From Verrucomicrobiales bacterium (GTDB taxonomy: Bacteria; Verrucomicrobiota; Verrucomicrobiia; Limisphaerales; CAIMTB01): a stretch of DNA of 37,194 nucleotides. The notes under the pieces were generated by a model. That model saw only the letters and a program-made list of their open reading frames with translations. It searched no databases and was not told where the DNA came from. The stretch covers positions 1 to 37,194 of the forward strand of contig JADLFD010000067.1 in assembly GCA_020845805.1 (NCBI GenBank), written 5' to 3'. Positions 10,190 through 32,264 of this stretch are shown here, piece by piece. How positions within the stretch are numbered: position 1 is the stretch's first letter; each line of letters begins with the position of its first letter. Both the position numbers and the translations under genes were made by a program.

Positions 10190-11002
10190 TTAGAACGCGT
10201 TGGTACGCGACTGGGAACCGCGCGCGTTGATCCACGGGACATCGCGCGGCCCGATGCGCGAGCCCGACGTCCCGGGGCGGAGCGTGTCGGGATCGAGCCA
10301 TCGTTTCACCTCGGCGTGCCCATCGGCAAACGAGAGGCCGCTCGCGCCATTGTGATAGACCGCCGGCAGATTGCCCCAGACATCGGTGCGGTTCACGAAC
10401 ACCAGGAAGTAGCCGTCATCCAGGCTTTCCTCGCGTTCGTCGATGAACACGAACTGTGAGGACGCGCGCGAGATCTCCGTGATCTTGCGATAGGTCCACC
10501 AGGCTTTCTCGGTCTCGACCGTGTGCCACGAGTTGCCATTCATGAACCCGTTCATCGAGATGGACCGGGTCCGCGGATACCGGCTGCCCCCGATTTTCAC
10601 CATGAACCGGTCGGCGGGGCATTTGTAGATTTCGACCGCGGAATTGTACGGGTAGAGGAGGCCGTTCGGGGGTTTGAGCAGGTTGACGTTGGTGCAGTCG
10701 GAGAGGTTCACCGGCGCCGCGGTGGTGCTGATCCAGCCGCCCACCCAGCCCCCGCGCGCGGTACCGTCCACGTTGGGGGGCAGGCGCTCGGCGTTGTCAT
10801 CCGCGTACATGATCCACGACAGGCTGAGTTGCTTGCCGTTGTTGATGCACTTGATGCCCTGCGCCTTCGTCTTGGCCTTGGACAGGGCCGGCAGGAGCAT
10901 GCTCGCGAGGATGGCGATGATGGCGATCACCACCAGCAGCTCGATGAGCGTGAAACCGCGCGGACGTGGGGTGCCGGTATCCATGGGATTCTCGCGAGTC
11001 AC
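10190..11002 (-). CDS. H-X9-DG pseudopilin (type II secretion-like prepilin)
   Basis: 270 residues from a GTG at 11002, which overlaps the TGA of the upstream gene by four bases; the ATG at 10984 is an alternative that leaves a 10-residue leader. The type IV prepilin peptidase site is [15 protein letters not shown], with Gly16, Phe17 and Glu21, followed by a single hydrophobic helix. The C-terminal part has [18 protein letters not shown] and, later, His then nine residues then DG in [10 protein letters not shown], the signature of the pre-pil_HX9DG family (TIGR04294). These proteins are abundant in Planctomycetota, Verrucomicrobiota and Lentisphaerota; their role is not defined. No secretion ATPase or secretin gene lies nearby. 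It is likely co-translated with the DUF1080 gene. Confidence 0.9.
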
Positions 11003-12075
11003 GGTTGCCGTTTCCCGCGGCGATCCTCGCCACCGATGCGGAAGATCACTTCGTCCGCGGTTCCGTCCGGTCGCCGTTGGAACGTGAGCTGCCCATCGAA
11101 GCTGCGGATGAAGAACGCGTCCTTGGAGCGGGCGTGCAGTGGGAAGCTCATCGACTTGCCCGGGTAGGCGATGGCGGCGTGGAGCAGGGCGCCGGGGCGC
11201 GTGATGGTGAGCGAAGCGCCGCCGCCGGCGTCATAGCGGCCGACGAGCGGGTCGAGGTCCTGCGTGCGCAAGGTGATCTCCTGGTCCTGTGCGTCGCGGC
11301 CGAGTTCCCGGATCCAGAGGTTGCGATAGCGAACCGGGTTGCCGTGGTCCTGGAGGGAGAGCGGGAGCTTGTTCTCGTGGGCGCGGTAGGGCGCGCGTTC
11401 GAGCCAGCCGGTGGGTCCGACGAGTTCCGACTCGTGCTGCACGAGGACGCCGTTGTGCAGGACGGTCACGCGAGCGGGGGAGAGGAGTTGGCCCTGCTCG
11501 TCGAAGCGCGGGCGCGTGAACACGATGTCGTAGGTCTGCCACTGACCGGGCGGGCGGGAGGCGTTGACCAGCGGCGGGTGCTGACCGTAAAGGGCGGCGG
11601 CTTGTCCGTCGGCGTAGGTGCGGTTCTCGTGGGAGTCGAGCACCTGCACCTCGTACAGGCCCATGAGAAAGACGCCGCTGTTGCCGCGACCCTGGCTGGT
11701 GCCCTCGGGCGGGGTGGGGGCAGCCCACTCGACATGGAGTTGGCAGTCGCCGAAGGCCTGCACGGTGCGGATGTAACCGCTGCCCTTGGCGCATTCGAGT
11801 ACGCCATCGCGGATCACCCATTTGGGTTCTCCTCCGTCCAGGCTGACCCAACCGGCCAGCGAGGAACCGTCGAACAGGACCACGGCATCGGAGGGCGCCT
11901 TGCCTGGCTTGTCGGGTGTGCTGGAGGTTCCGGGATCGATGGCCTTCGGGCGCGGGCGCTCCCAATCGTGCTGGCGCCAGTCGAAAACCGAGGCGGCGCG
12001 GACACTAGGGAGGAGGACGATGAGAAGCGACAGGGTCGCGACCAAACGGGGAAGGCAAGGGCGTGCAGCGTGCAT
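10999..12075 (-). CDS. Secreted DUF1080 protein (3-keto-disaccharide hydrolase fold)
   Basis: 358 residues from the ATG at 12075; the open frame extends to 12246 but the upstream part lacks protein character. A signal peptide covers about 1-27 (ending SVRA|ASVF). The DUF1080 jelly-roll core starts near [14 protein letters not shown], with [20 protein letters not shown] and [13 protein letters not shown] as its conserved strands. This family includes the 3-keto-glycoside hydrolases of Verrucomicrobiota, Planctomycetota and Bacteroidota, generally periplasmic. An additional C-terminal region (about 280-358) with [16 protein letters not shown] is specific to this protein. Its TGA overlaps the GTG of the downstream pseudopilin gene. 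Catalytic residues are not assigned. Confidence 0.9.
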
Positions 12076-12281
12076 GGTGAGACCGTGGGATGCGGCACGT
12101 TGGCGGGAAACGGTTCGGGAGGCGAGCGCGGAACGACGGACGTCCAAGGCCCGGGCGTACGGGTCGGGCGCACGACCCTGGGGTGGCCGGGTGGAGTTCG
12201 GAAAGCGTCCACCGGGGGACGGATGGGCTGAGGAACGAAGCGACATTGCAGTCGCCCACGGAAAGCGGTTTGCATGGCGCC

Positions 12282-16446: not shown

Positions 16447-16510
16447 AGCTCGATGCCAGACCTCGTCCCGGCGCTTGGCGCACACCGCCAGGGTGCGGCA
16501 CCCTCGCCGT

Positions 16511-18097
16511 ATGGAAGTGCAAGGCGGCGAGTCTCCGGCGCCCGCGATTCAGGGGCAGGAGCCCGTGACCCGCTGGAACCGCCGTTTCTGGGTGATGGTC
16601 GGCACGGTCCTGGTCTTGCGCGTGCTCTACGCGTGGGTGTTTCCCCTCGATCTGGCCCCGGACGAATCCTACTACTGGGATTGGGGGCGGCGGCTGGACA
16701 TCGGGTACTACAGCAAGCCTCCGATGGTCGGCTGGCTGATGGGGCTGGCAGGGTTTCTGGGCGGCAATACGCAGTTCGGCGTGAAGGTGTTCCCGGCCGT
16801 GCTCGCGACGGCGGCGCTGGTCTTTGTTTATCTGCTGGGCCGATCCATGTTCGGCGCGCGCGCCGGTTTCTGGGCGGCGGCGCTGATGGTCGCTTCTCCG
16901 GCCGCGGTGGCGCTTGGAGCCTTCTTCACCATCGACGCCCCACTCATGCTGTTCTGGAGCGCCAGCCTCTACTTCGCCTGGCGATGCCTCCAGGAAGGTG
17001 CGAACCACTCGTGGCGCAACACACTCCTCCTCGTGGCGTGCCTGGGGCTTGGCTTCCTCACCAAGCAGATCCACTGCCTGTTTCCGCTCCTGTACCTGCT
17101 CGCCCTGGCGGCCACCGCCGGCTTGCGACCCGCCGCGCAGCCGGTCCGCGTCGCGGCGGTGGTCGGGCTGCCGTTTTTGTTCCTCCTGCCCCCGGTCCTT
17201 TGGAATTGGCGCCACGACTGGATCACCTTTCGCCATACCGTGGAGGAGTTGGAGGATCGGCCTTGGCAACTTTCCCGCAGCCTCAAATTCGTGGGCGAGT
17301 TCCTGGGAGGCCAGGCGGGATTGGGCGGCGGGATCACTTGGATCTTGATGATGCTGGCACTGGCCATCGCGGTGCGCGGTTGGCGAACGCGGAATCCCCA
17401 AGGGCGGTTCCTCCTCGCGTTCAGTTTACCCGGGGTCCTCGCCTTCCTCGGTTTGTCCGTGTTCCAGCGGGTGGAGCAGAACTGGCCCATGGTTTTTTAT
17501 GTGGCCGCGGCGGTGCTCGCCGCCGGCTGGCTCGCGCGGGAAGAGGCTCCGCCGCGTGCCGGGGCAAGCGCCCTGAAATGGGCGGTGCGGCTGGGGGGAT
17601 TCCTGGGCGTCGCCCTGATGCTGGTGCCCTTCGTGCTGCCGTGGTCTCCCTGGGCCGGGTCAAAAAGCGATCCCACCGCGCGCGTCCGTGGCTGGAGGGA
17701 GCTGGCGACCGCCGTGGAACCCGTGCGGCGTGCGGTGCCGCGCCCGGAGCGAACCTTGGTGCTCGCTCCCGATGACCGATATGCCGCGAGTGCCCTCGCT
17801 TTTTACCTGCCGGACCAGCCGCGAACCTTCTGTTGGGAGTCGAAGGATCGCCTGGAATCCCAATATGGAATCTGGGGACGACCCGGAGCCGAATGGGCCG
17901 GCTGGGATGCCTTGGTGATCGCTCGGAACCCCTTGGATGCGAAGCTCAAGGACGTTGCCCAACGGTTCGATAAGTGGGAGAGTCGCGGCACGATAACCCT
18001 CTCCCTGGGACGGCAGAAAGCGCGGGACCGGCGCTATGTTGTTTTTGTGGGGCAGGGGTATCGACCGCCGGAAACCGTTGGAACTGGTGGGAAATAA
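16511..18097 (+). CDS. GT39-type membrane glycosyltransferase (ArnT/PMT-like)
   Basis: 528 residues from the ATG at 16511. After a first membrane helix, the catalytic Asp-Glu pair occurs in LAPDESYYWDWGRRLD (D51, E52), followed by SKPPMVGWLM, a pattern characteristic of bacterial GT39/GT83-like transferases that use polyprenyl-phosphate sugars. About ten further hydrophobic helices follow, and a soluble C-terminal domain of about 130 residues (RTLVLAPDDRYAASALAFYL) lies outside the membrane. It should act at the outer face of the inner membrane, transferring a lipid-linked sugar to lipid A, another glycolipid or proteins. The acceptor is unknown. It is divergent from the CPBP gene and is followed by an independent FecR gene. 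Confidence 0.88.
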   Translation: MEVQGGESPAPAIQGQEPVTRWNRRFWVMVGTVLVLRVLYAWVFPLDLAPDESYYWDWGRRLDIGYYSKPPMVGWLMGLAGFLGGNTQFGVKVFPAVLATAALVFVYLLGRSMFGARAGFWAAALMVASPAAVALGAFFTIDAPLMLFWSASLYFAWRCLQEGANHSWRNTLLLVACLGLGFLTKQIHCLFPLLYLLALAATAGLRPAAQPVRVAAVVGLPFLFLLPPVLWNWRHDWITFRHTVEELEDRPWQLSRSLKFVGEFLGGQAGLGGGITWILMMLALAIAVRGWRTRNPQGRFLLAFSLPGVLAFLGLSVFQRVEQNWPMVFYVAAAVLAAGWLAREEAPPRAGASALKWAVRLGGFLGVALMLVPFVLPWSPWAGSKSDPTARVRGWRELATAVEPVRRAVPRPERTLVLAPDDRYAASALAFYLPDQPRTFCWESKDRLESQYGIWGRPGAEWAGWDALVIARNPLDAKLKDVAQRFDKWESRGTITLSLGRQKARDRRYVVFVGQGYRPPETVGTGGK

Positions 18098-22733: not shown

Positions 22734-23063
22734 ATGAGCGCAGGCCGAGCCGATCGAATCTCCCCCACCCCGTCCCTCCGCGCCGAACCCTCTGATGATT
22801 CCGCCCTGAGCCTGCCCGCCAGCGCGGTCACCATTCGAAAGAACGGCATCGAGTTCGTCTCGAAGCAGCCGCTCGCGCAGTGGACGGAAGTCACCCTCTC
22901 CATCGAGTCCTCCGTGGAACGCAAGCGCGTCAACTGCCGTGGTGTGGTGGTGGCGTGCGACGGGAACCGTCACAAGGGCTACCAGGTCTCGCTGCTTTTC
23001 CTGGGGCTCACACCGCAGATCCAGGAGCGGCTCGAATCACTCGCCCTCTCGCATCTGCGCTAG
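22734..23063 (+). CDS. PilZ-like domain protein, degenerate
   Basis: 109 residues. The C-terminal two thirds looks like a PilZ beta-barrel: EVTLSIES, NCRGVVVACDGNRHKGYQVSLLFLGL and a closing helix IQERLESLALSHL. The canonical c-di-GMP-binding motifs (RxxxR and DxSxxG) are not seen: the position of the second reads TIRKNG. It could therefore bind a protein partner instead. It lies 79 bases before the PilT gene on the same strand, consistent with a role in pilus function. Identity with the PilZ fold is probable, not certain. Confidence 0.55.
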   Translation: MSAGRADRISPTPSLRAEPSDDSALSLPASAVTIRKNGIEFVSKQPLAQWTEVTLSIESSVERKRVNCRGVVVACDGNRHKGYQVSLLFLGLTPQIQERLESLALSHLR

Positions 23064-23142
23064 AGGCCGGCTCGCATCCCCTATTCCCCTGCGCGTCGTG
23101 CCACCGGCCGCCGCGTCGTCACGCCTTCCCCCGATCTGTCCC

Positions 23143-24231
23143 ATGGAACTCTTTCACAAGATCCTCAAGACCGCCGTCGAAGGCGGTGCCTCCGACGTCC
23201 ATCTCAAGAGCGCGTCGCCGGTGGTGTTCCGCATCAACCGCCAGCTTGTCCCCATCGAGTGCCCTGAACCCACGGAGGAATGGGTGGCCAGCATTGTCGA
23301 ACAGATCGTGCCGCGGCATGGCAAGGAGCAGATGGCCGAGACGCGCGAGGTCGACTTCTCCTATTTTGTTCCCGGCATCGGCCGGTTTCGAACCAACGTC
23401 TTCCAGCAGCGCGGCATGCTCTGTCTCGCCATGCGATATGTGAAGGCGAACATCCCGGAGTTCGAAGCCTTGGGCCTGCTCCCGATCGTGCGGAAGATCG
23501 CCAGCGCACCGCGCGGCATCGTCCTGGTCGCCGGCGCCACCGGCAGCGGCAAGTCGACCACCCTGGCCGCCATGATGCAGCACATCAATCGCACGTCGCG
23601 GAAACACGTCATCACCCTCGAGGATCCCATCGAGTACGTGTTCGACGACGACCAGTCGGTCATCGAGCAGCGCGAGATCGGGTTGGACACGCCGTCCTAT
23701 CCCATGGGTCTCAAGTACGTGCTGCGCCAGGACCCCGATATCATCATGATCGGGGAGATGCGCGACGCCATCAGCTTCCAGGCGGCGATCGGCGCGGCCG
23801 ATACGGGACACCTGGTCCTTTCCACGCTGCATACCACCACCGCCGCGCAGTCCGTCACCCGCATTCTTGATTTCTTCAAGGCCGACGAGCGCGAGCAGGT
23901 GCGCCGTCAGTTGGTGGGCACGCTCCAGGCGGTGATCTGCCAGCGCATGGTCCAAACCGTCGATGCCGGGGTGACGGTCGCGCTCGAAATCCTCATCAGC
24001 AACAGCACGGTCCGGAAGCTCATCGAGGAAAACCGGCTGGACAAGCTTCCGGCCGCCATCGAGGTCGGTACCGACGACGGCATGCAGACGTTCAATCAGG
24101 CGCTCTTCGATTTGGTGAAGGCGCGCCGGGTCACCGAGAAGGAAGCGCTGGCGAAGGCCTCGAACGCCCAGGCGCTCGAGATGAACTTCAAAGGCATCTT
24201 CCTCGACGAGGGCCGGCGCATCCTCGGCTAA
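23143..24231 (+). CDS. pilT: PilT-family twitching motility ATPase
   Basis: 362 residues from the ATG at 23143; the open frame starting earlier overlaps the PilZ-like gene. The N-terminal segment GGASDVHLKSASPVVFRIN is the PilT/PilU N-domain, followed by Walker A GATGSGKST (131-139), Asp box LEDPIEYVF, Walker B DIIMIGEMRD (199-208) and His box STLHTTTAAQSV. This is a hexameric retraction ATPase acting at the base of type IV pili. The usual C-terminal AIRNLIRE motif is replaced by TVRKLIEE, so it may be a PilT paralogue such as PilU or a Verrucomicrobia-specific form. No other pilus machinery genes are nearby. Confidence 0.88.
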   Translation: MELFHKILKTAVEGGASDVHLKSASPVVFRINRQLVPIECPEPTEEWVASIVEQIVPRHGKEQMAETREVDFSYFVPGIGRFRTNVFQQRGMLCLAMRYVKANIPEFEALGLLPIVRKIASAPRGIVLVAGATGSGKSTTLAAMMQHINRTSRKHVITLEDPIEYVFDDDQSVIEQREIGLDTPSYPMGLKYVLRQDPDIIMIGEMRDAISFQAAIGAADTGHLVLSTLHTTTAAQSVTRILDFFKADEREQVRRQLVGTLQAVICQRMVQTVDAGVTVALEILISNSTVRKLIEENRLDKLPAAIEVGTDDGMQTFNQALFDLVKARRVTEKEALAKASNAQALEMNFKGIFLDEGRRILG

Positions 24232-26663: not shown

Positions 26664-28037
26664 ATGCGAGATGCTGAACATGACGGATGGTGCGGGGGCG
26701 CCCTGCCTGCGAGTGAACGCTGCTTCGCGCGGCCGGATCTGCTTCCCAGGGGGAGGGGTTCCCGCCGGCATCCTCCCACCGTCGCGACGGGCGCGGAGCG
26801 TTTCCAGAATCACCGGGGCTTCCTTCGCCGTACGCGATGTCCTTCCGCCAAGGCGCCCTCCGCGCGTGCCCAGTGCCTCGCGGCACGCGAGCTGTTCGGG
26901 AGGAGGAGGATCCCTCGGAGTTGGCCAAGCCGTCATCTGCTTTGGCTGCGGCGGCTCGCTGCTTTCGTTCTCGGGTGGGGGTTGCTGATTTGCGTTGTGC
27001 GAGCGGAGCTTCCGCCGCTGCGGAGGTTTCTTGAGTCGCCTCCCCGATTCGACGCTCTGCTCCTGCGTCGATCGTTGAGTGTGTCCCCCGTGGCCTTCCG
27101 CAATCGGCGTGAGGCGGATGAGTTCGTGCGCCGCGCGCGTGCGGGGGAGATCAAACCGGTTGGGCAGGAGGCATTGTACGAGATCCGTTATCAGGCCGAG
27201 CCCCCTGCATTCTTCCTGCGGCTGCTCCTGGATTCCGCCGAGTTCGAAACCCCGGCCGGGGTGCGAGGCACTCCTTTCGCGGGAAGGTTTGGCAACCAGT
27301 GGTGGTCGATCCTTCCCGTCCGACCCGCCCAGATCCAGATCCTCGAGTCGGAGGATGGCGTGGACGTGGATCCCCGCGGCCAGACCAACACCTTCCACCA
27401 GGGAAACGAACGGTGGGCCACCGAGTACTTCCGGCTCGGACTGGTGGACGTGTTGGCCTCGAGTGTGCGCTGGATTGAGGACGACCGGCGTTTCGAGGCA
27501 CGAACCGAGGCGGGGGTGATGTGCGACGGTCGAGTGGAACCAGGTCTGGATCCGGCCTCCGTACGCATCGCCGTCGTTTATCGAGGACTGAATGCCGGCC
27601 GAGCCATTGATTTGCGCGGTACGAATGACGGGGCGGCCTGGCTGCCGCTCACTCTCAATCTCACCGACTGGAATGGCCAGCCGTCGAATACCAATCAATA
27701 CGCGCATTACGACGTCTTGGAATACCGGCTCTCCTCGTCGCCTCTGCCGCGCGAGCGTTTCTCCCCCGAGCCCTATCTCACCACCAACGATCTGTGGGTG
27801 GAACTCAAGCACGGGGATCACTTTGTCCTCCGCACGGAAGGCACCAATGTGATCCGCACCCTCGCGGCAGCCGAACCCGCTCGGCTGGATCTGCGACCGT
27901 TCGCCAAGGTTTTGCTCCTCATCGTTCTGGCGACGATGGCGGTGTCGACGATCCTCGCCGGCATCGGTTGGCGTTGGCGAAACGGTCGGTCGCCACGCCA
28001 GCGGGAGCAGTCGATCCCGACCGAACCAAGGAGGTAG
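26664..28037 (+). CDS. Exported membrane-anchored protein of unknown family (start uncertain)
   Basis: I do not recognise this family. The maximal frame from the ATG at 26664 gives 457 residues, but the first 90 or so look non-coding and no internal Met occurs before the signal peptide. The real protein probably begins near 26900-26946, where a signal peptide reads LRRLAAFVLGWGLLICVVRA. A strong purine tract (aggaggagga, 26901-26910) lies before it, but no ATG or GTG in this frame follows at the right distance. The mature part is about 310 residues, probably beta-rich, with RTEAGVMCDGRVEPGLD and DGAAWLPLTLNLTDWNGQP, and ends with a membrane helix (KVLLLIVLATMAVSTILAGI) and a basic tail. So the protein should be held in the membrane facing the periplasm. 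It leads a cluster of six co-directional genes and abuts the ten-cysteine protein gene. Confidence 0.65.
   Translation: MRDAEHDGWCGGALPASERCFARPDLLPRGRGSRRHPPTVATGAERFQNHRGFLRRTRCPSAKAPSARAQCLAARELFGRRRIPRSWPSRHLLWLRRLAAFVLGWGLLICVVRAELPPLRRFLESPPRFDALLLRRSLSVSPVAFRNRREADEFVRRARAGEIKPVGQEALYEIRYQAEPPAFFLRLLLDSAEFETPAGVRGTPFAGRFGNQWWSILPVRPAQIQILESEDGVDVDPRGQTNTFHQGNERWATEYFRLGLVDVLASSVRWIEDDRRFEARTEAGVMCDGRVEPGLDPASVRIAVVYRGLNAGRAIDLRGTNDGAAWLPLTLNLTDWNGQPSNTNQYAHYDVLEYRLSSSPLPRERFSPEPYLTTNDLWVELKHGDHFVLRTEGTNVIRTLAAAEPARLDLRPFAKVLLLIVLATMAVSTILAGIGWRWRNGRSPRQREQSIPTEPRR
28028..28034 (+). promoter_or_regulatory. Strong Shine-Dalgarno of the ten-cysteine protein
   Basis: AAGGAGG, five bases before the ATG at 28040, overlapping the end of the preceding gene. 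It is the closest match to the anti-Shine-Dalgarno seen in the window and suggests high translation of the small exported protein. Confidence 0.75.
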
Positions 28038-28039
28038 TT

Positions 28040-28468
28040 ATGTTCAGAGTGGTCAAGAACCGTTGGGTGCGACTCATTGCGGCGCTCGGAGCGCTGGTCG
28101 TCGTCCCCATCTCGTCGCCCGCCCAATCCCTATCCTGCTTCGCCGCCATGGAGCGGACGGTCTGCAAGTGCACCTCGTGCACCTATATGGTCCTCTGCAA
28201 ATTCCAGCTGGGGGTCCCTTCCACGTATCTCGGATACGACTTCTGCACCGGGAACAATCCCGGTTTTGTGGTGATGTCCGCCGGACCCGCCAACTCCGGC
28301 CGCACGAGCCAGAGCGCGACTTACGGAATCGGGTGTGGAACCGCCACACTGGTGGGCGCTTGCTGTGGAGGCACGCGAGCAGCCGCCACGGACGCGAGCG
28401 TTTACACCATCATGAGCCCCTCCGGTACCGTGTGCGGCGCGGCGGGTACCGCCGGTACGGGCGTCTGA
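28040..28468 (+). CDS. Small exported ten-cysteine protein, unknown family
   Basis: 142 residues. A signal peptide covers about 1-28 (basic RNRW-like start, hydrophobic LIAALGALVVVPIS, then PAQS). The mature part of about 113 residues has ten cysteines at 33, 42, 44, 47, 53, 69, 99, 108, 109 and 132. Four of them lie in VCKCTSCTYMVLCKF; a CC pair lies in GACCGG. The remainder is Gly, Ala, Ser and Thr rich and ends GTAGTGV. An even number of cysteines suits disulfide bonding or metal binding outside the cytoplasm. It has the best ribosome-binding site in the window and is followed by a hairpin, then a MauE/DoxX-like gene. I know no family that matches; it could be a surface subunit, a disulfide-stabilised peptide or a metal-binding carrier. 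Confidence 0.82.
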   Translation: MFRVVKNRWVRLIAALGALVVVPISSPAQSLSCFAAMERTVCKCTSCTYMVLCKFQLGVPSTYLGYDFCTGNNPGFVVMSAGPANSGRTSQSATYGIGCGTATLVGACCGGTRAAATDASVYTIMSPSGTVCGAAGTAGTGV

Positions 28469-28479
28469 TCCGGCTCACG

Positions 28480-28506
28480 GGCCGGCGTGGACTCCGGCCT
28501 GTTTCT
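28480..28506 (+). terminator. Possible terminator or attenuator after the ten-cysteine gene
   Basis: GGCCGG (28480-28485) pairs with CCGGCC (28494-28499) around an 8-base loop, followed by TGTTTCT. It starts 12 bases after the stop codon at 28468. A partial terminator here would give more message for the small exported protein than for the four genes after it. Confidence 0.4.
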
Positions 28507-28591
28507 CACTAGCACAACGGCTCCCCGTGGCGACGGGCTTCTGGTCCGACCGCGCGGGGCGCCGTCCTCGAATCCCCTTCGCTTGGAAAGG

Positions 28592-29086
28592 ATGTCTCTT
28601 GTGCGTACTCAATGGACCAACTTGGAAAGAACCTGGCTCTGGATGTCAGTCGGCCTCTTTCTCACCACCGGCCTGGCGAAACTCCACGCGGGCTTGGTGC
28701 ATCCCGAATCCCTACCGGGGGCGGAACGGGTCTTCGGGGTTCCTCTCATCGGGTGGTCGCTCGGACTGGGGACCTTGGAGACCTCTCTAGCCGTGGTGTT
28801 GCTCGGGATCCCTCGGTTTGATCTGGCCTGCCGATGTCTCCGTCTCGTCTTCACGGGAATTCTCGGCTACCGCGTGCTGCTGGAGTGGGAGGGCGGGGGC
28901 CCTTGCGCCTGCCTGGGTCAGTTGCTCGCCCGAACGCCACTGCAGGAACGGGAGGGTCTTTTGCTCTGGAGCGTGGCCATTGCCGCGGCGCTCGCCAACG
29001 AGTGTGCCCTGTACCTGCATCATCGGCGCCTCCGTCGGGCCATCACCGTCCCCACTCCACCCGCTGCGTCGCATGCCAGGACCTGA
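28592..29086 (+). CDS. MauE/DoxX-like membrane protein
   Basis: 164 residues from the ATG at 28592; a GTG at 28601 gives a better spacing from GGAAAGG (28585-28591). Four hydrophobic helices are visible: LWMSVGLFLTTGLAKL, SLGLGTLETSLAVVLLG, LVFTGILGYRVLLEW and LLLWSVAIAAALANECAL. The AKL end of the first helix and the short CACLGQ motif between helices three and four resemble the CxCFG motif of the MauE/DoxX redox-associated family. MauE is required for disulfide-rich methylamine dehydrogenase small-subunit maturation. Here its neighbour encodes a ten-cysteine exported protein, which fits a thiol-redox role. It overlaps the GT39-like gene by 14 bases. Family assignment is moderately sure. Confidence 0.72.
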   Translation: MSLVRTQWTNLERTWLWMSVGLFLTTGLAKLHAGLVHPESLPGAERVFGVPLIGWSLGLGTLETSLAVVLLGIPRFDLACRCLRLVFTGILGYRVLLEWEGGGPCACLGQLLARTPLQEREGLLLWSVAIAAALANECALYLHHRRLRRAITVPTPPAASHART

Positions 29087-30647
29087 TCTGGATTCTCTGC
29101 CACCGGCAATCCCGGCCGCCCCTCGCCCTTTGGCCTCTCCGGTCTGGTGCAACCCGGTGCCGGCCTGGCTGATGTTCGCCGTTCTGTGGCCTTGTGTCGT
29201 GGGAGCTCTGGTCGCGCTGGGGACGGTCGAGCGAGTCGGGGGTGATGAGGGCCTCGAACTCGGAAAGGCGGCCCATCTCCTGCGGACTGGGGAATTTTCC
29301 GCGTCGATCTGGAACGACCAACCCATGACGCACACCCGACTGTTCGCACGGATGCTCGCCCTGCATGGAGGCCCGTTGCTTCCGCGTTCGTGGTCCCTGG
29401 TTCACTACGGTGTGCTGCTCGCCAGCGTAGGCTGGAGTGCGTGGTCCCTGTTCCACTCGCGAAGGGCTGCCATCGCTGCCGTCGCGACGGTGGCCCTCTC
29501 CCCTGCCTGCCTGGATCTGTCGCTTTCCGCCATGCAGGAAATGCCGATGACTGCGTGGGGCATGCTGGCGGTGGCGTTCGCGCTGGCTTCCCGCCACGCG
29601 CCGCACCCGGGTTATCTGCTCGCCTCCGGGGCCTGCGCGGTCGTCTCCCTGCTCCTCAAGCTGACCGGCGGCGTCTTCGTGGCGGCCTGCGTTTTGATCC
29701 TGCTCGCGGGAGAGGGAACGGTGAGCCGGCCGACTCAGGGCCATCGCCTGAGGCGCGCCCTCGGGTATTCGGCGGCGGTGGCCACGTTGTGTGGGTTGGG
29801 GCTGGCGATCGTGGACGGCAGACCTCTCAGCACACTCCTGGGGAGTCATTGGACCTCGCGAGTGCGGGCCGCCGGGTCGGGAGGCCAAACCCTGGTTCAA
29901 ACTGGACTCGGACTCTGGGCGCACGCCTGGCCGGTACTGATCGCCGCCGTCCTTGCGGCTTGGCCTGGCGCAAGGAGGCCCCCGGGATGCGGCTCCTCGC
30001 TCGCGCTCCAGGCCGCCGTCCTGCTGCCAGTGGTCCTGTTCCATCTCCTTATCCGACCGTGGTGGGGCTATTACTCGGTCTCTGCCATCGCTGTTCTGGC
30101 GCCGGCTGCGGGGTATGCGGTGGTCCGCGGGAGGGAGGACTTGCGCCTTGCCTGGCAGACGGGAGTGCCCAGCCGGACTTTCCTGACCGCCACGTTGCGC
30201 ATGATCGTGTTGGCGCTGGCGGCCGGAGCTGCCGGGCTGGGATGGGTGGAACGGATCCGGCTCTGGAACTCGGCTCCCCGTGTCGAGGCTTCCCCTATCC
30301 TGCGCGCGATCGAAGCGTACCAGGCGGATGGCCCAGCGGGGTGCATGTACTCTGCGGATGCCATGGATGCGTTCTGGGCTGGGATCCCCGTGCCTCCTGA
30401 ACTGCTGGTGATCTCTGAGAAGCGGTTCCTCAGTGGCAGCCTCCCCGAGGACGGAGTGCCGAGGGTGCTCGAGCGATCGGGCTGTGACTTCATCGTGCTG
30501 CCGGAAGGTTCCGCTCCCACCCGGGGCGAGACCTGGAATGCGCTGCTTTCCCGCGACTACGTCCGCACGACCGTGGGAGCGGGAAAGGAACTCTTCGTAC
30601 ACCGCGAACTCGATCCTAGGCCGCATGAATCCCATGTTCGCTGGTGA
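29073..30647 (+). CDS. GT39-like polytopic membrane transferase
   Basis: 524 residues from the ATG at 29073. After the first membrane helix (AWLMFAVLWPCVVGALVAL) comes ERVGGDEGLELGKA with an Asp-Glu pair (58-59), the position of the catalytic acid pair in GT39/PMT_2 enzymes. About nine more hydrophobic helices follow, then a soluble C-terminal domain of about 130 residues. It should act on the outer face of the inner membrane with a polyprenyl-phosphate sugar donor. The sequence is more diverged than the GT39 gene at 16511. It overlaps both neighbours, by 14 bases with the MauE-like gene and by 23 with the pseudopilin gene, so translation is coupled across all three. Confidence 0.75.
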   Translation: MPGPDLDSLPPAIPAAPRPLASPVWCNPVPAWLMFAVLWPCVVGALVALGTVERVGGDEGLELGKAAHLLRTGEFSASIWNDQPMTHTRLFARMLALHGGPLLPRSWSLVHYGVLLASVGWSAWSLFHSRRAAIAAVATVALSPACLDLSLSAMQEMPMTAWGMLAVAFALASRHAPHPGYLLASGACAVVSLLLKLTGGVFVAACVLILLAGEGTVSRPTQGHRLRRALGYSAAVATLCGLGLAIVDGRPLSTLLGSHWTSRVRAAGSGGQTLVQTGLGLWAHAWPVLIAAVLAAWPGARRPPGCGSSLALQAAVLLPVVLFHLLIRPWWGYYSVSAIAVLAPAAGYAVVRGREDLRLAWQTGVPSRTFLTATLRMIVLALAAGAAGLGWVERIRLWNSAPRVEASPILRAIEAYQADGPAGCMYSADAMDAFWAGIPVPPELLVISEKRFLSGSLPEDGVPRVLERSGCDFIVLPEGSAPTRGETWNALLSRDYVRTTVGAGKELFVHRELDPRPHESHVRW

Positions 30648-31545
30648 GTCCGCCAGGCCCCGGCCAGGGGGAACGCGGGTCCGCCGGCTGCCCGTGCGGA
30701 CACCTCACTCCGCTCCTGGCTGGAACGCGGGGTGGACTTCCTGGCAGCGCGGTCGGAGTGCGTATTGGCCCGGGTTCACCTTGATCGAGTTGATGGTCGT
30801 GATCGGGATCCTGGGGCTTCTCGCCGCGCTCCTGGCCCCAGCGTTGAGTTCGGCACAGCGCCGGGTGGGAGCTGAGGTTTGCGCTTCCAATCTGCGACAA
30901 TGGCAGCAGGCCTGGCTCATGTACGCGGATGAGGCCGCGGGCCGCCTGGTTCCCAATCAGGCGCGGTCGGTGGCCATGGACTGGCGCGGCACCCCCGAAT
31001 CGTGGGCCGGGACCCACCATGCGCGATTGGATGCCGGGCCTGACGCACTCAACCAGGGCGTCCTCTGGCGGTACCTGGGCTTGGGCCGATCCGCGGTGGC
31101 GCGATGTCCAGCGGATCGCAGCCGGGTTGAATCGGGGCAGGCTGCCCGCCTGCGATCCTATTCGCTCAATGGGAACTGCCATGGGCGCACGAACGAGCAG
31201 CAGGGGGTGGCCTTCACGCTCCAGGATCTGCCCAGCCCGGCCTCGGTGTTCACGTTCATTGACGAGCATCCGGACAGCATCGATGACGGTCATTTTCTGG
31301 TTTGGAGTCCGCCCGAGACCCGTTGGGTCAATCTCCCGGCGGATCGGCATGGGCGGATGGGTATTTGGGCCGCGGCGGACGGGCATGTGGTGCGCCAACG
31401 TTGGAAGGCTCCCAAACATTGGATTCGTCATGGAACGTACTGGATGGAGAGCCGTTCCCCCGAAGACCGCGCCGACCTGAGCACGCTTCAGGAGTGGATT
31501 CTGGAGTTTCCTGTTCCCGTCCCCGTCCCCGACCCGCCTCCATGA
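30625..31545 (+). CDS. H-X9-DG pseudopilin with unusually long leader
   Basis: 306 residues from the ATG at 30625 (an ATG at 30634 is possible). The prepilin peptidase site is WPG|FTLIELMVVIGILGLL, with Gly50, Phe51 and Glu55, so the leader is about 50 residues, compared with the usual 6 to 25. Later, FTFIDEHPDSIDDGHFLVW and His-X9-DG (HGRMGIWAAADG) match the pre-pil_HX9DG family; the same block is seen in the pseudopilin at 10190. The C-terminus is a Pro-Val run (FPVPVPVPDPPP). Its start overlaps the preceding GT39-like gene by 23 bases and its stop overlaps the GT2 gene by four, which is unusual for a structural subunit gene and supports a functional link to the glycosyltransferases. Confidence 0.88.
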   Translation: MNPMFAGESARPRPGGTRVRRLPVRTPHSAPGWNAGWTSWQRGRSAYWPGFTLIELMVVIGILGLLAALLAPALSSAQRRVGAEVCASNLRQWQQAWLMYADEAAGRLVPNQARSVAMDWRGTPESWAGTHHARLDAGPDALNQGVLWRYLGLGRSAVARCPADRSRVESGQAARLRSYSLNGNCHGRTNEQQGVAFTLQDLPSPASVFTFIDEHPDSIDDGHFLVWSPPETRWVNLPADRHGRMGIWAAADGHVVRQRWKAPKHWIRHGTYWMESRSPEDRADLSTLQEWILEFPVPVPVPDPPP

Positions 31546-32264
31546 GAACGACCCGTGTCACGCTCGTCATCCCGGTGCTGAACGAGGAACGCCAATTGCC
31601 GTGGAGCATCTGGCGGCTGCGCGAATCCCTGCGACGCATCGATGGTTATGACTGGGATTTGGTGGTGGTGGACAACGGATCGACGGATCGAACCTGGGAA
31701 GTGGCGGAGTCGCTCCAGGCGCGGGGCGAGGCGCGCGCCCTTTCCATCGGTCGGCGAGGTCGGGGTGGCGCTTTGCGGGAAGCGTGGAGCATGGCCACGG
31801 GGGAGATTCTTGCGTACATGGACGTCGATCTCTCCACGGATCTGGTTCATGTGCGGGACCTCGTGCAACCCCTGCGCGCCGGAACCGCCGATGTGGTGGC
31901 GGGCTCGAGACTATCGCCCGGTTCGCGCGTGGTGCGTGGGTGGCGGCGGGAATGCCTGTCCCGCGTCTTCAACCAAATGGCGCGCGTGCTGACCGGATCA
32001 CGCGTGCGGGATCATCAGTGTGGGTTCAAGGCCCTGACGCGCTTGGCCTGGCTGGATCTGGCGCCTTGCATCGAGGATCGCGCCTGGTTTTTCGATACCG
32101 AATTGCTCGTTCACGCCCAGCGTCGCGGCTGGAGGATTCTGGAAATGCCGGTCCACTGGGTGGACGATCCGGACTCCCGGGTACGGATTTTCTCGACCGC
32201 CTGGCAGGAGTTCCGCGGATTGTGGCGCCTGCGGGCACGACCGGCGCGCAGGATTTTCACTTGA
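31542..32264 (+). CDS. GT2 glycosyltransferase, polyprenyl-phosphate sugar synthase-like
   Basis: 240 residues from an ATG overlapping the pseudopilin stop (ATGA). The GT-A signatures of the DPM1-like group are present: TLVIPVLNEERQL, VVVDNGSTDRT, the DVDLSTD metal-binding DxD (Asp94, Asp96), and HQCGFKALTR. Such enzymes make polyprenyl-phosphate mannose or glucose at the cytoplasmic face of the inner membrane. No membrane helix is obvious, so it is of the soluble/peripheral type. It closes the cluster. With the GT39-like gene it would form a donor-plus-transferase pair, as in bacterial protein O-mannosylation or arabinose addition to lipid A. The sugar is not identified. Confidence 0.88.
   Translation: MRTTRVTLVIPVLNEERQLPWSIWRLRESLRRIDGYDWDLVVVDNGSTDRTWEVAESLQARGEARALSIGRRGRGGALREAWSMATGEILAYMDVDLSTDLVHVRDLVQPLRAGTADVVAGSRLSPGSRVVRGWRRECLSRVFNQMARVLTGSRVRDHQCGFKALTRLAWLDLAPCIEDRAWFFDTELLVHAQRRGWRILEMPVHWVDDPDSRVRIFSTAWQEFRGLWRLRARPARRIFT

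Follow-up and report, generated by a model that had tools for sequence, protein, structure and literature searches.

A putative modular envelope system of LolA-like, cysteine-rich and MauE-family proteins in one order of Verrucomicrobiota

What joins an exported ten-cysteine protein, a MauE-like membrane protein, two glycosyltransferases and a pseudopilin in a single run of genes? The question is raised by a contig of a Verrucomicrobiales bacterium (JADLFD010000067.1, assembly GCA_020845805.1), of which we analyzed positions 1 to 37,194 of the forward strand (the window; contig C67 of genome G000, which comprises 6.5 Mb in 840 contigs). Six genes on one strand of the window were described in the original prediction as an envelope module that folds and glycosylates either the cysteine-rich protein or the pseudopilin. 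We find that the module is very probably real and order-wide, and that the locus appears to belong, as one version among others, to a so far undescribed modular envelope system that is widely reused in one order of Verrucomicrobiota. Its core consists of a LolA-like protein, a small cysteine-rich Sec-exported protein encoded directly after it and, beside this pair, a MauE-family protein with an invariant CxC; the pseudopilin lies outside the core. The genes that accompany the core are exchangeable and encode GT-C glycosyltransferases, O-antigen-ligase-like proteins, GtrA or GT2, with a pseudopilin in some loci. The title of the original prediction named five of the parts and omitted gene 1, the membrane-anchored LolA-like protein, which in its pairing with the cysteine-rich protein turned out to be the most informative member.

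A recurrent core around MauE

Profiles of the gene 1 family (P1) and of the MauE-like family were run on 293 genomes from 118 genera of the order. We collected 100 loci around matches to both profiles, and 40 further loci, away from the listed MauE places, around matches to P1 or to C2, a second LolA-like exported family with a C-terminal anchor that takes the place of gene 1 in other loci. The C2, cysteine-rich, pseudopilin and glycosyltransferase genes played no part in choosing the 100 loci. Background frequencies were taken within these loci, at positions that do not lie near MauE, and the resulting enrichments are conservative and are not random-genome controls. Genes were called by a simple open reading frame (ORF) and codon-position method, and cysteine-rich proteins by a rule of hydropathy and cysteine density, which missed gene 2 of the window; this gene, which has an upstream extension of its ORF, was entered manually.

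The gene 3 product alone has no Pfam match, and its name comes from its homologues, 39 of 46 of which match PF07291 MauE (E<=1), the first member above the cut-off. In the alignment of the family (A4), E, Y, C, C and G are invariant, including the CxC, and CxCxG occurs in 111 of 127 MauE-family ORFs. MauE was found in 50 of the 118 genera, with at least 11 listed copies in one genome. The 127 MauE genes have a LolA-like gene within reach in 86 cases, a cysteine-rich gene in 76, both in 67, a glycosyltransferase in 85 and a pseudopilin in 52, while the corresponding background frequencies are 7% for LolA-like, 10% for cysteine-rich, 12% for glycosyltransferase and 11% for pseudopilin genes. C2 is enriched 52-fold near MauE; the 10.7-fold enrichment of P1 is biased, as P1 was used in choosing the loci. 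The density of cysteine-rich proteins around MauE is 1.51 per 10 kb, compared with 0.17 elsewhere, and the pairing of MauE-like proteins with disulfide-rich exported proteins, which the original prediction had taken as established, is recurrent here. Natural fusions join every part of the module but the glycosyltransferases: MauE is fused to C2 (9 ORFs), to P1 (2) and to a pseudopilin (2), and one P1 ORF continues into a cysteine-rich domain (L140:8619-10067). Distances between MauE proteins correlate weakly with those between LolA-like proteins (r about 0.2, p=0.003 and 0.008), a co-divergence to which shared species history may contribute.

Several MauE relatives have other architectures or neighbors. 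In L006:17236-18597 and L161:6881-8242, a MauE-like domain without the CxC and a pseudopilin are fused, with a zinc-ribbon-like CxxC/CxxC stretch between them. In L127:8669-9871 a MauE-like domain is fused to an apparent monofunctional peptidoglycan transglycosylase. A beta-propeller/hydrolase-like protein resembling prolyl oligopeptidase recurs near MauE (L087:4752-6566, L161:5102-6877 and relatives); the one tested had no Pfam match.

Both families in the gene 1 position have a predicted LolA fold. The AlphaFold2 model of P1, built from the window protein and nine homologues (pLDDT 67, pTM 0.59), finds as best matches in the Protein Data Bank LolA (4ki3, E=1.3e-4, probability 1.00), LolB (9tpm) and MucB (6in9), and the C2 model (pLDDT 82, pTM 0.78) finds LolA3 of Porphyromonas (9tp6, 3.6e-6), 3buu (1.6e-5) and other LolA-superfamily proteins. 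The TM-scores of these matches are modest (0.3-0.5), so the claim is limited to similarity of fold and does not extend to function. In both models the domain is followed by a long C-terminal helix, to which P1 adds a basic tail, which is not the form of a soluble carrier of Lol transport. Profile comparison showed no homology between P1 and C2 (hhalign probability 0.4%), and the two agree in fold only. P1 was found by profile in 60 of the 293 genomes and 42 of the 118 genera. Outside the order, P1 was found in 0 and C2 in 1 of 288 genomes of a sample of the phylum, approximate counts given that few candidates were scored per genome, and both families appear almost confined to the order. Neither has a convincing Pfam match, C2 has none in NCBIfam, and the families and the system seem to be undescribed in these profile libraries and in the open-access papers searched. 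Genes of the LuxR response regulator type or the AraC type stand immediately upstream of some P1 genes (L080:6867-7574, L151, L099; L168:47-424, L081, L082). C24, a third family of small exported proteins, is likewise anchored at the C-terminus and encoded ahead of a short cysteine-rich protein (L006:10610-11901, L084, L161).

The LolA-like and cysteine-rich genes form ordered pairs. Homologues of gene 2 in G003, another species of the same genus (43% identity), and in G032 (28%) each lie directly behind a gene 1 homologue. More generally, a cysteine-rich ORF is directly downstream of 63 of 106 LolA-like genes, often with a 4-nt overlap, and upstream of 5 (p=6e-19). In total there are 78 such pairs in 51 genomes and 21 families; 46 of the 51 genomes have MauE within the distance searched around a pair, and 41 have a glycosyltransferase in reach as well as MauE. 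The first cysteine spacing is C-x7/8-C in 23 of 32 partners that follow P1 compared with 3 of 43 that follow C2 (Fisher p=4e-9), and an aromatic residue often follows the first cysteine of the proteins behind P1. The type of LolA-like protein therefore predicts the scaffold of its partner, as in cognate pairs. This partner-specific test was used because MAFFT aligns cysteine columns in shuffled sequences as well (6 vs up to 5), and a universal six-cysteine scaffold was not established. Cysteine number varies from 5 to 16, and spacing varies too.

Order conservation, glycosyltransferases and the pseudopilin

In G003, contig C261 carries all six genes in identical order, with identities for genes 1 to 6 of 46, 43, 46, 33, 47 and 59%. 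The unit lies between the same flanks as in the window, a metallophosphatase gene on the opposite strand and a PhoH-like gene downstream (65 and 82% identity). That the order persists despite such divergence points to selection acting on the unit, and the alternative that the original prediction had named, genes scattered in related genomes and adjacent here by chance, failed for G003. The joint search of relatives that it had proposed gave a narrower result than a fixed six-gene module, in that the exact set occurs only in G000 and G003 within the order sample, and what is conserved is the modular core. Searches with the window proteins gave no match in three further genomes of the genus, and family profiles later found other, divergent members in G001 and G004, so the unit either moves between genomes or is frequently lost. 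No empty site was shown by comparison with species of the genus, where the G001 flanks are on separate contigs and G002 and G004 are without one or both best flank matches. A related-locus search returned 16 Verrucomicrobiota/Limisphaerales contigs, largely from genomes already sampled.

The gene 4 product reaches 22.4 bits against the PMT_2 cut-off of 26.1 (E=1.5e-4), and its G003 orthologue passes at 28.1; the GGDE motif of its first periplasmic loop is retained in G003 and G012. The position of gene 4 is taken in other loci by PIG-V, GT87, O-antigen-ligase-like (Wzy_C) or GtrA genes, which belong to unrelated families. Most of the PIG-V, GT87, O-antigen-ligase and GtrA families work with lipid-linked sugars. 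The gene 6 product matches dolichol-P-mannose synthase (5mlz, 5.6e-13), ArnC (9hwj, 1.7e-12) and the AglJ model TIGR04182 (5.6e-18, under the model cut-off), and is related in sequence to the DPM1/ArnC-like polyprenyl-phosphate sugar synthases, with a predicted lipid substrate. Another PMT_2 (GT39-type) glycosyltransferase, well above the cut-off, is encoded at 16475-18097 (+) of the window, ~9 kb upstream of the module.

Gene 5 carries the prepilin cleavage/methylation motif, with PF07963 and TIGR02532 both above cut-off; as a major pseudopilin GspG of type II secretion it scores 39 bits on an equivalog model that needs 88.85. It resembles the Verru_Chthon cassette proteins in coming from a pseudopilin-bearing cassette of Verrucomicrobiota, but falls far under their models (TIGR02596, 18.4 vs 70 bits; TIGR02599, 10.7 vs 256.5 bits). 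The original prediction counted the pseudopilin as a full member. Its enrichment near MauE is the weakest in the module (4.8-fold) and gene 5 belongs to a set of about 80 prepilin-type genes in G000, but the two MauE-pseudopilin fusions and the synteny with G003 argue that its presence is not random. A second prepilin-type gene of the window adjoins a 3-keto-disaccharide hydrolase-domain gene (10190-11002 and 10999-12246, both on the - strand).

The most serious rival explanation concerns these three genes: the core of LolA-like, cysteine-rich and MauE proteins would be real, and genes 4-6 would serve a separate surface-glycan or pilin function and merely share the operon. The exchange among unrelated glycosyltransferase types, the abundance of pseudopilins in the genome and the many core loci with neither a glycosyltransferase nor a pseudopilin speak for it; the frequency of glycosyltransferases beside MauE (85/127 vs 12%), which bears out the original association of lipid-linked-sugar enzymes with the module, the exact order in G003 and the MauE-pseudopilin fusions speak against it. 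We consider a separate function unlikely, though far from negligible.

Proposed function and its rivals

We hypothesize that the system carries out the oxidative folding and the delivery of disulfide-rich envelope proteins of many kinds, with glycosylation as an added function, a reading that we regard as evenly balanced. The cysteine-rich protein would be the product and would cross the membrane by Sec. Its LolA-fold partner, tethered to the inner membrane by the C-terminal helix, would hold it as a carrier or holdase, and the CxC of MauE would supply or shuffle its disulfides before the product moves on in the direction of the cell surface. The linked GT-C enzyme would, in some versions, glycosylate the product with a polyprenyl-phosphate sugar that the GT2 protein synthesizes or GtrA flips, and the pseudopilin would be an optional part for delivery or display. 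We infer these steps from the biology of MauE, which is proposed to form disulfides in the beta subunit of methylamine dehydrogenase (PMC7794033), and from that of LolA, for which specialized paralogues are known, such as LolA2/LolB2 of flexirubin operons (PMC11885536).

LolA/LolB carriers and LolA2/LolB2 share the predicted fold of P1 and C2 and offer an earlier example of LolA paralogues that serve one gene cluster. P1 and C2 differ from them in having one C-terminal membrane anchor rather than being free carriers, in having no Pfam sequence match and in a candidate cargo that is not a lipoprotein. Serine and threonine make up 18% of the cysteine-rich proteins (22% in the window), 14% of the LolA-like proteins and 12% of the pseudopilins, a content compatible with O-glycosylation of the cysteine-rich proteins and not proof of it. 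More tentatively, we propose a hypervariable disulfide-rich repertoire whose members are each matured singly by a dedicated tethered LolA-fold partner and MauE and decorated by exchangeable glycosyltransferases, a class specific to the order. The parts have known folds; their combination as a system is new to the profile libraries and literature searched. If the proposal is true, two unnamed LolA-like families gain a shared role, MauE acts beyond methylamine metabolism and helps disulfide-rich exported proteins in general to fold, and a LolA-fold protein can be dedicated to a single cargo that is not a lipoprotein. Since the LolA-like type predicts the cysteine pattern of the partner, the pairing can be put to a direct test in E. 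coli.

Several observations weigh against the folding and delivery hypothesis. For 32 of the 127 MauE genes, neither partner was detected within 2.5 kb, partly owing to short contigs and the crude cysteine-rich detector. Among the 40 loci picked away from MauE matches, 17 of 22 P1 and 18 of 24 C2 genes were without MauE, which is thus not obligatory; MauE was within reach of 5/22 P1 and 6/24 C2 genes and a cysteine-rich gene of 7/22 and 13/24, and many of these contigs end at the gene. A motif search found no convincing thioredoxin-type CxxC protein that could be a thioredoxin-like MauD <=4 kb from MauE. The confidence of the P1 model is only moderate. A lipobox-like match is present in just 9 of 84 cysteine-rich partners, so most are not lipoproteins, the LolA-like protein would not carry ordinary Lol cargo, and lipoprotein cargo was rejected. 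The roles given to glycosylation and to the pseudopilin are suggested by neighborhood alone.

A quite different use of the same pairs is conceivable, in which the cysteine-rich protein is a secreted bacteriocin-like antagonist, the tethered LolA-like protein its cognate immunity protein or holdase, and the many versions a polymorphic repertoire. Hypervariable small disulfide-rich products in cognate pairing, a small gene that adjoins a membrane-anchored partner, and a patchy distribution that reaches at least 11 MauE loci in one genome would all suit it. However, the LolA-like gene normally comes before the small gene, whereas immunity genes usually follow, toxin-immunity pairs are not usually tied so constantly to MauE and glycosyltransferases, and no toxin or defense model matched; we regard an antagonist as distinctly improbable. 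A defense system was also considered and gave no PADLOC matches.

Less likely still is an envelope sensor, with the tethered LolA-like protein in the place of RseB/MucB and the cysteine-rich protein as ligand or signal. RseB/MucB has a periplasmic LolA-like domain, MucB is among the structure matches of P1, and regulator genes precede some P1 genes; but RseB is soluble, whereas P1 is tethered by its own helix and paired with a cysteine-rich protein, no RseA or sigma factor was recognized among the neighbors, and the window and most loci are without regulators. Least plausible of all is a Mau-like maturation, in which MauE would mature the small cysteine-rich subunit of a periplasmic redox enzyme comparable to methylamine dehydrogenase: the family membership of MauE and its requirement in the mau system with a cysteine-rich small subunit (PMC7794033) fit, as does the shared combination of a MauE-family membrane protein with a small cysteine-rich exported protein, but no counterpart of MauA, MauB, MauD or MauG was identified near MauE, no mau enzyme genes were recognized in the window locus, the product is hypervariable in cysteine number and spacing, unlike a conserved catalytic subunit, and loci of the window type add a tethered LolA-like partner and glycosyltransferases.

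The window locus

The six ORFs are all open on the + strand at the positions originally reported, and four junctions match to the nucleotide (28037/28040, 29073 before 29086, 30625 before 30647 and 31542 before 31545). The features are collected in Table 1.

Table 1. Genes of the putative envelope module in the window
Gene	Coordinates	Strand	Product and remarks
Gene 1 (P1 family)	26898..28037	+	Exported LolA-like periplasmic domain (predicted), one C-terminal transmembrane helix, basic tail; start codon uncertain
Gene 2	28040..28468	+	Ten-cysteine Sec-exported protein, 142 aa; start 2 nt past gene 1 stop
Gene 3	28592..29086	+	MauE-family membrane protein, CxC-L-G motif; ORF readable from GTG 28487
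Gene 4	29073..30647	+	Polytopic GT39/PMT_2-like glycosyltransferase (GT-C); GGDEG and WNDQP motifs in first loop
Gene 5	30625..31545	+	Pseudopilin (prepilin-type) protein, GFTLIELMVVIGILGLLAALLAPAL; PF07963 25.1 bits, TIGR02532 above cut-off
Gene 6	31542..32264	+	GT2, polyprenyl/dolichyl-phosphate sugar synthase type, without membrane domain; PF00535 3e-24

The ATG at 26664, the sole one upstream, is a doubtful start for gene 1: coding before ~26.9 kb is not supported, the signal-peptide-like stretch starts near 26.92 kb, and the in-frame codons there are only CTG until TTG 26982. Gene 3 likely starts at ATG 28592 (with ggaaagg upstream) rather than at GTG 28487, which would leave the gap from 28468 to 28592 as the one loose junction. 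The count of cysteines in gene 2 was right, with exactly ten in the mature part. Scans of the locus gave no promoter exceeding chance and a few weak terminator-like sites. Upstream of the module, a PilT-like type II/IV secretion ATPase is encoded in both G000 (window 22939-24231, +) and G003 (L005:2498-3586), with an Fe-ADH gene following it in both.

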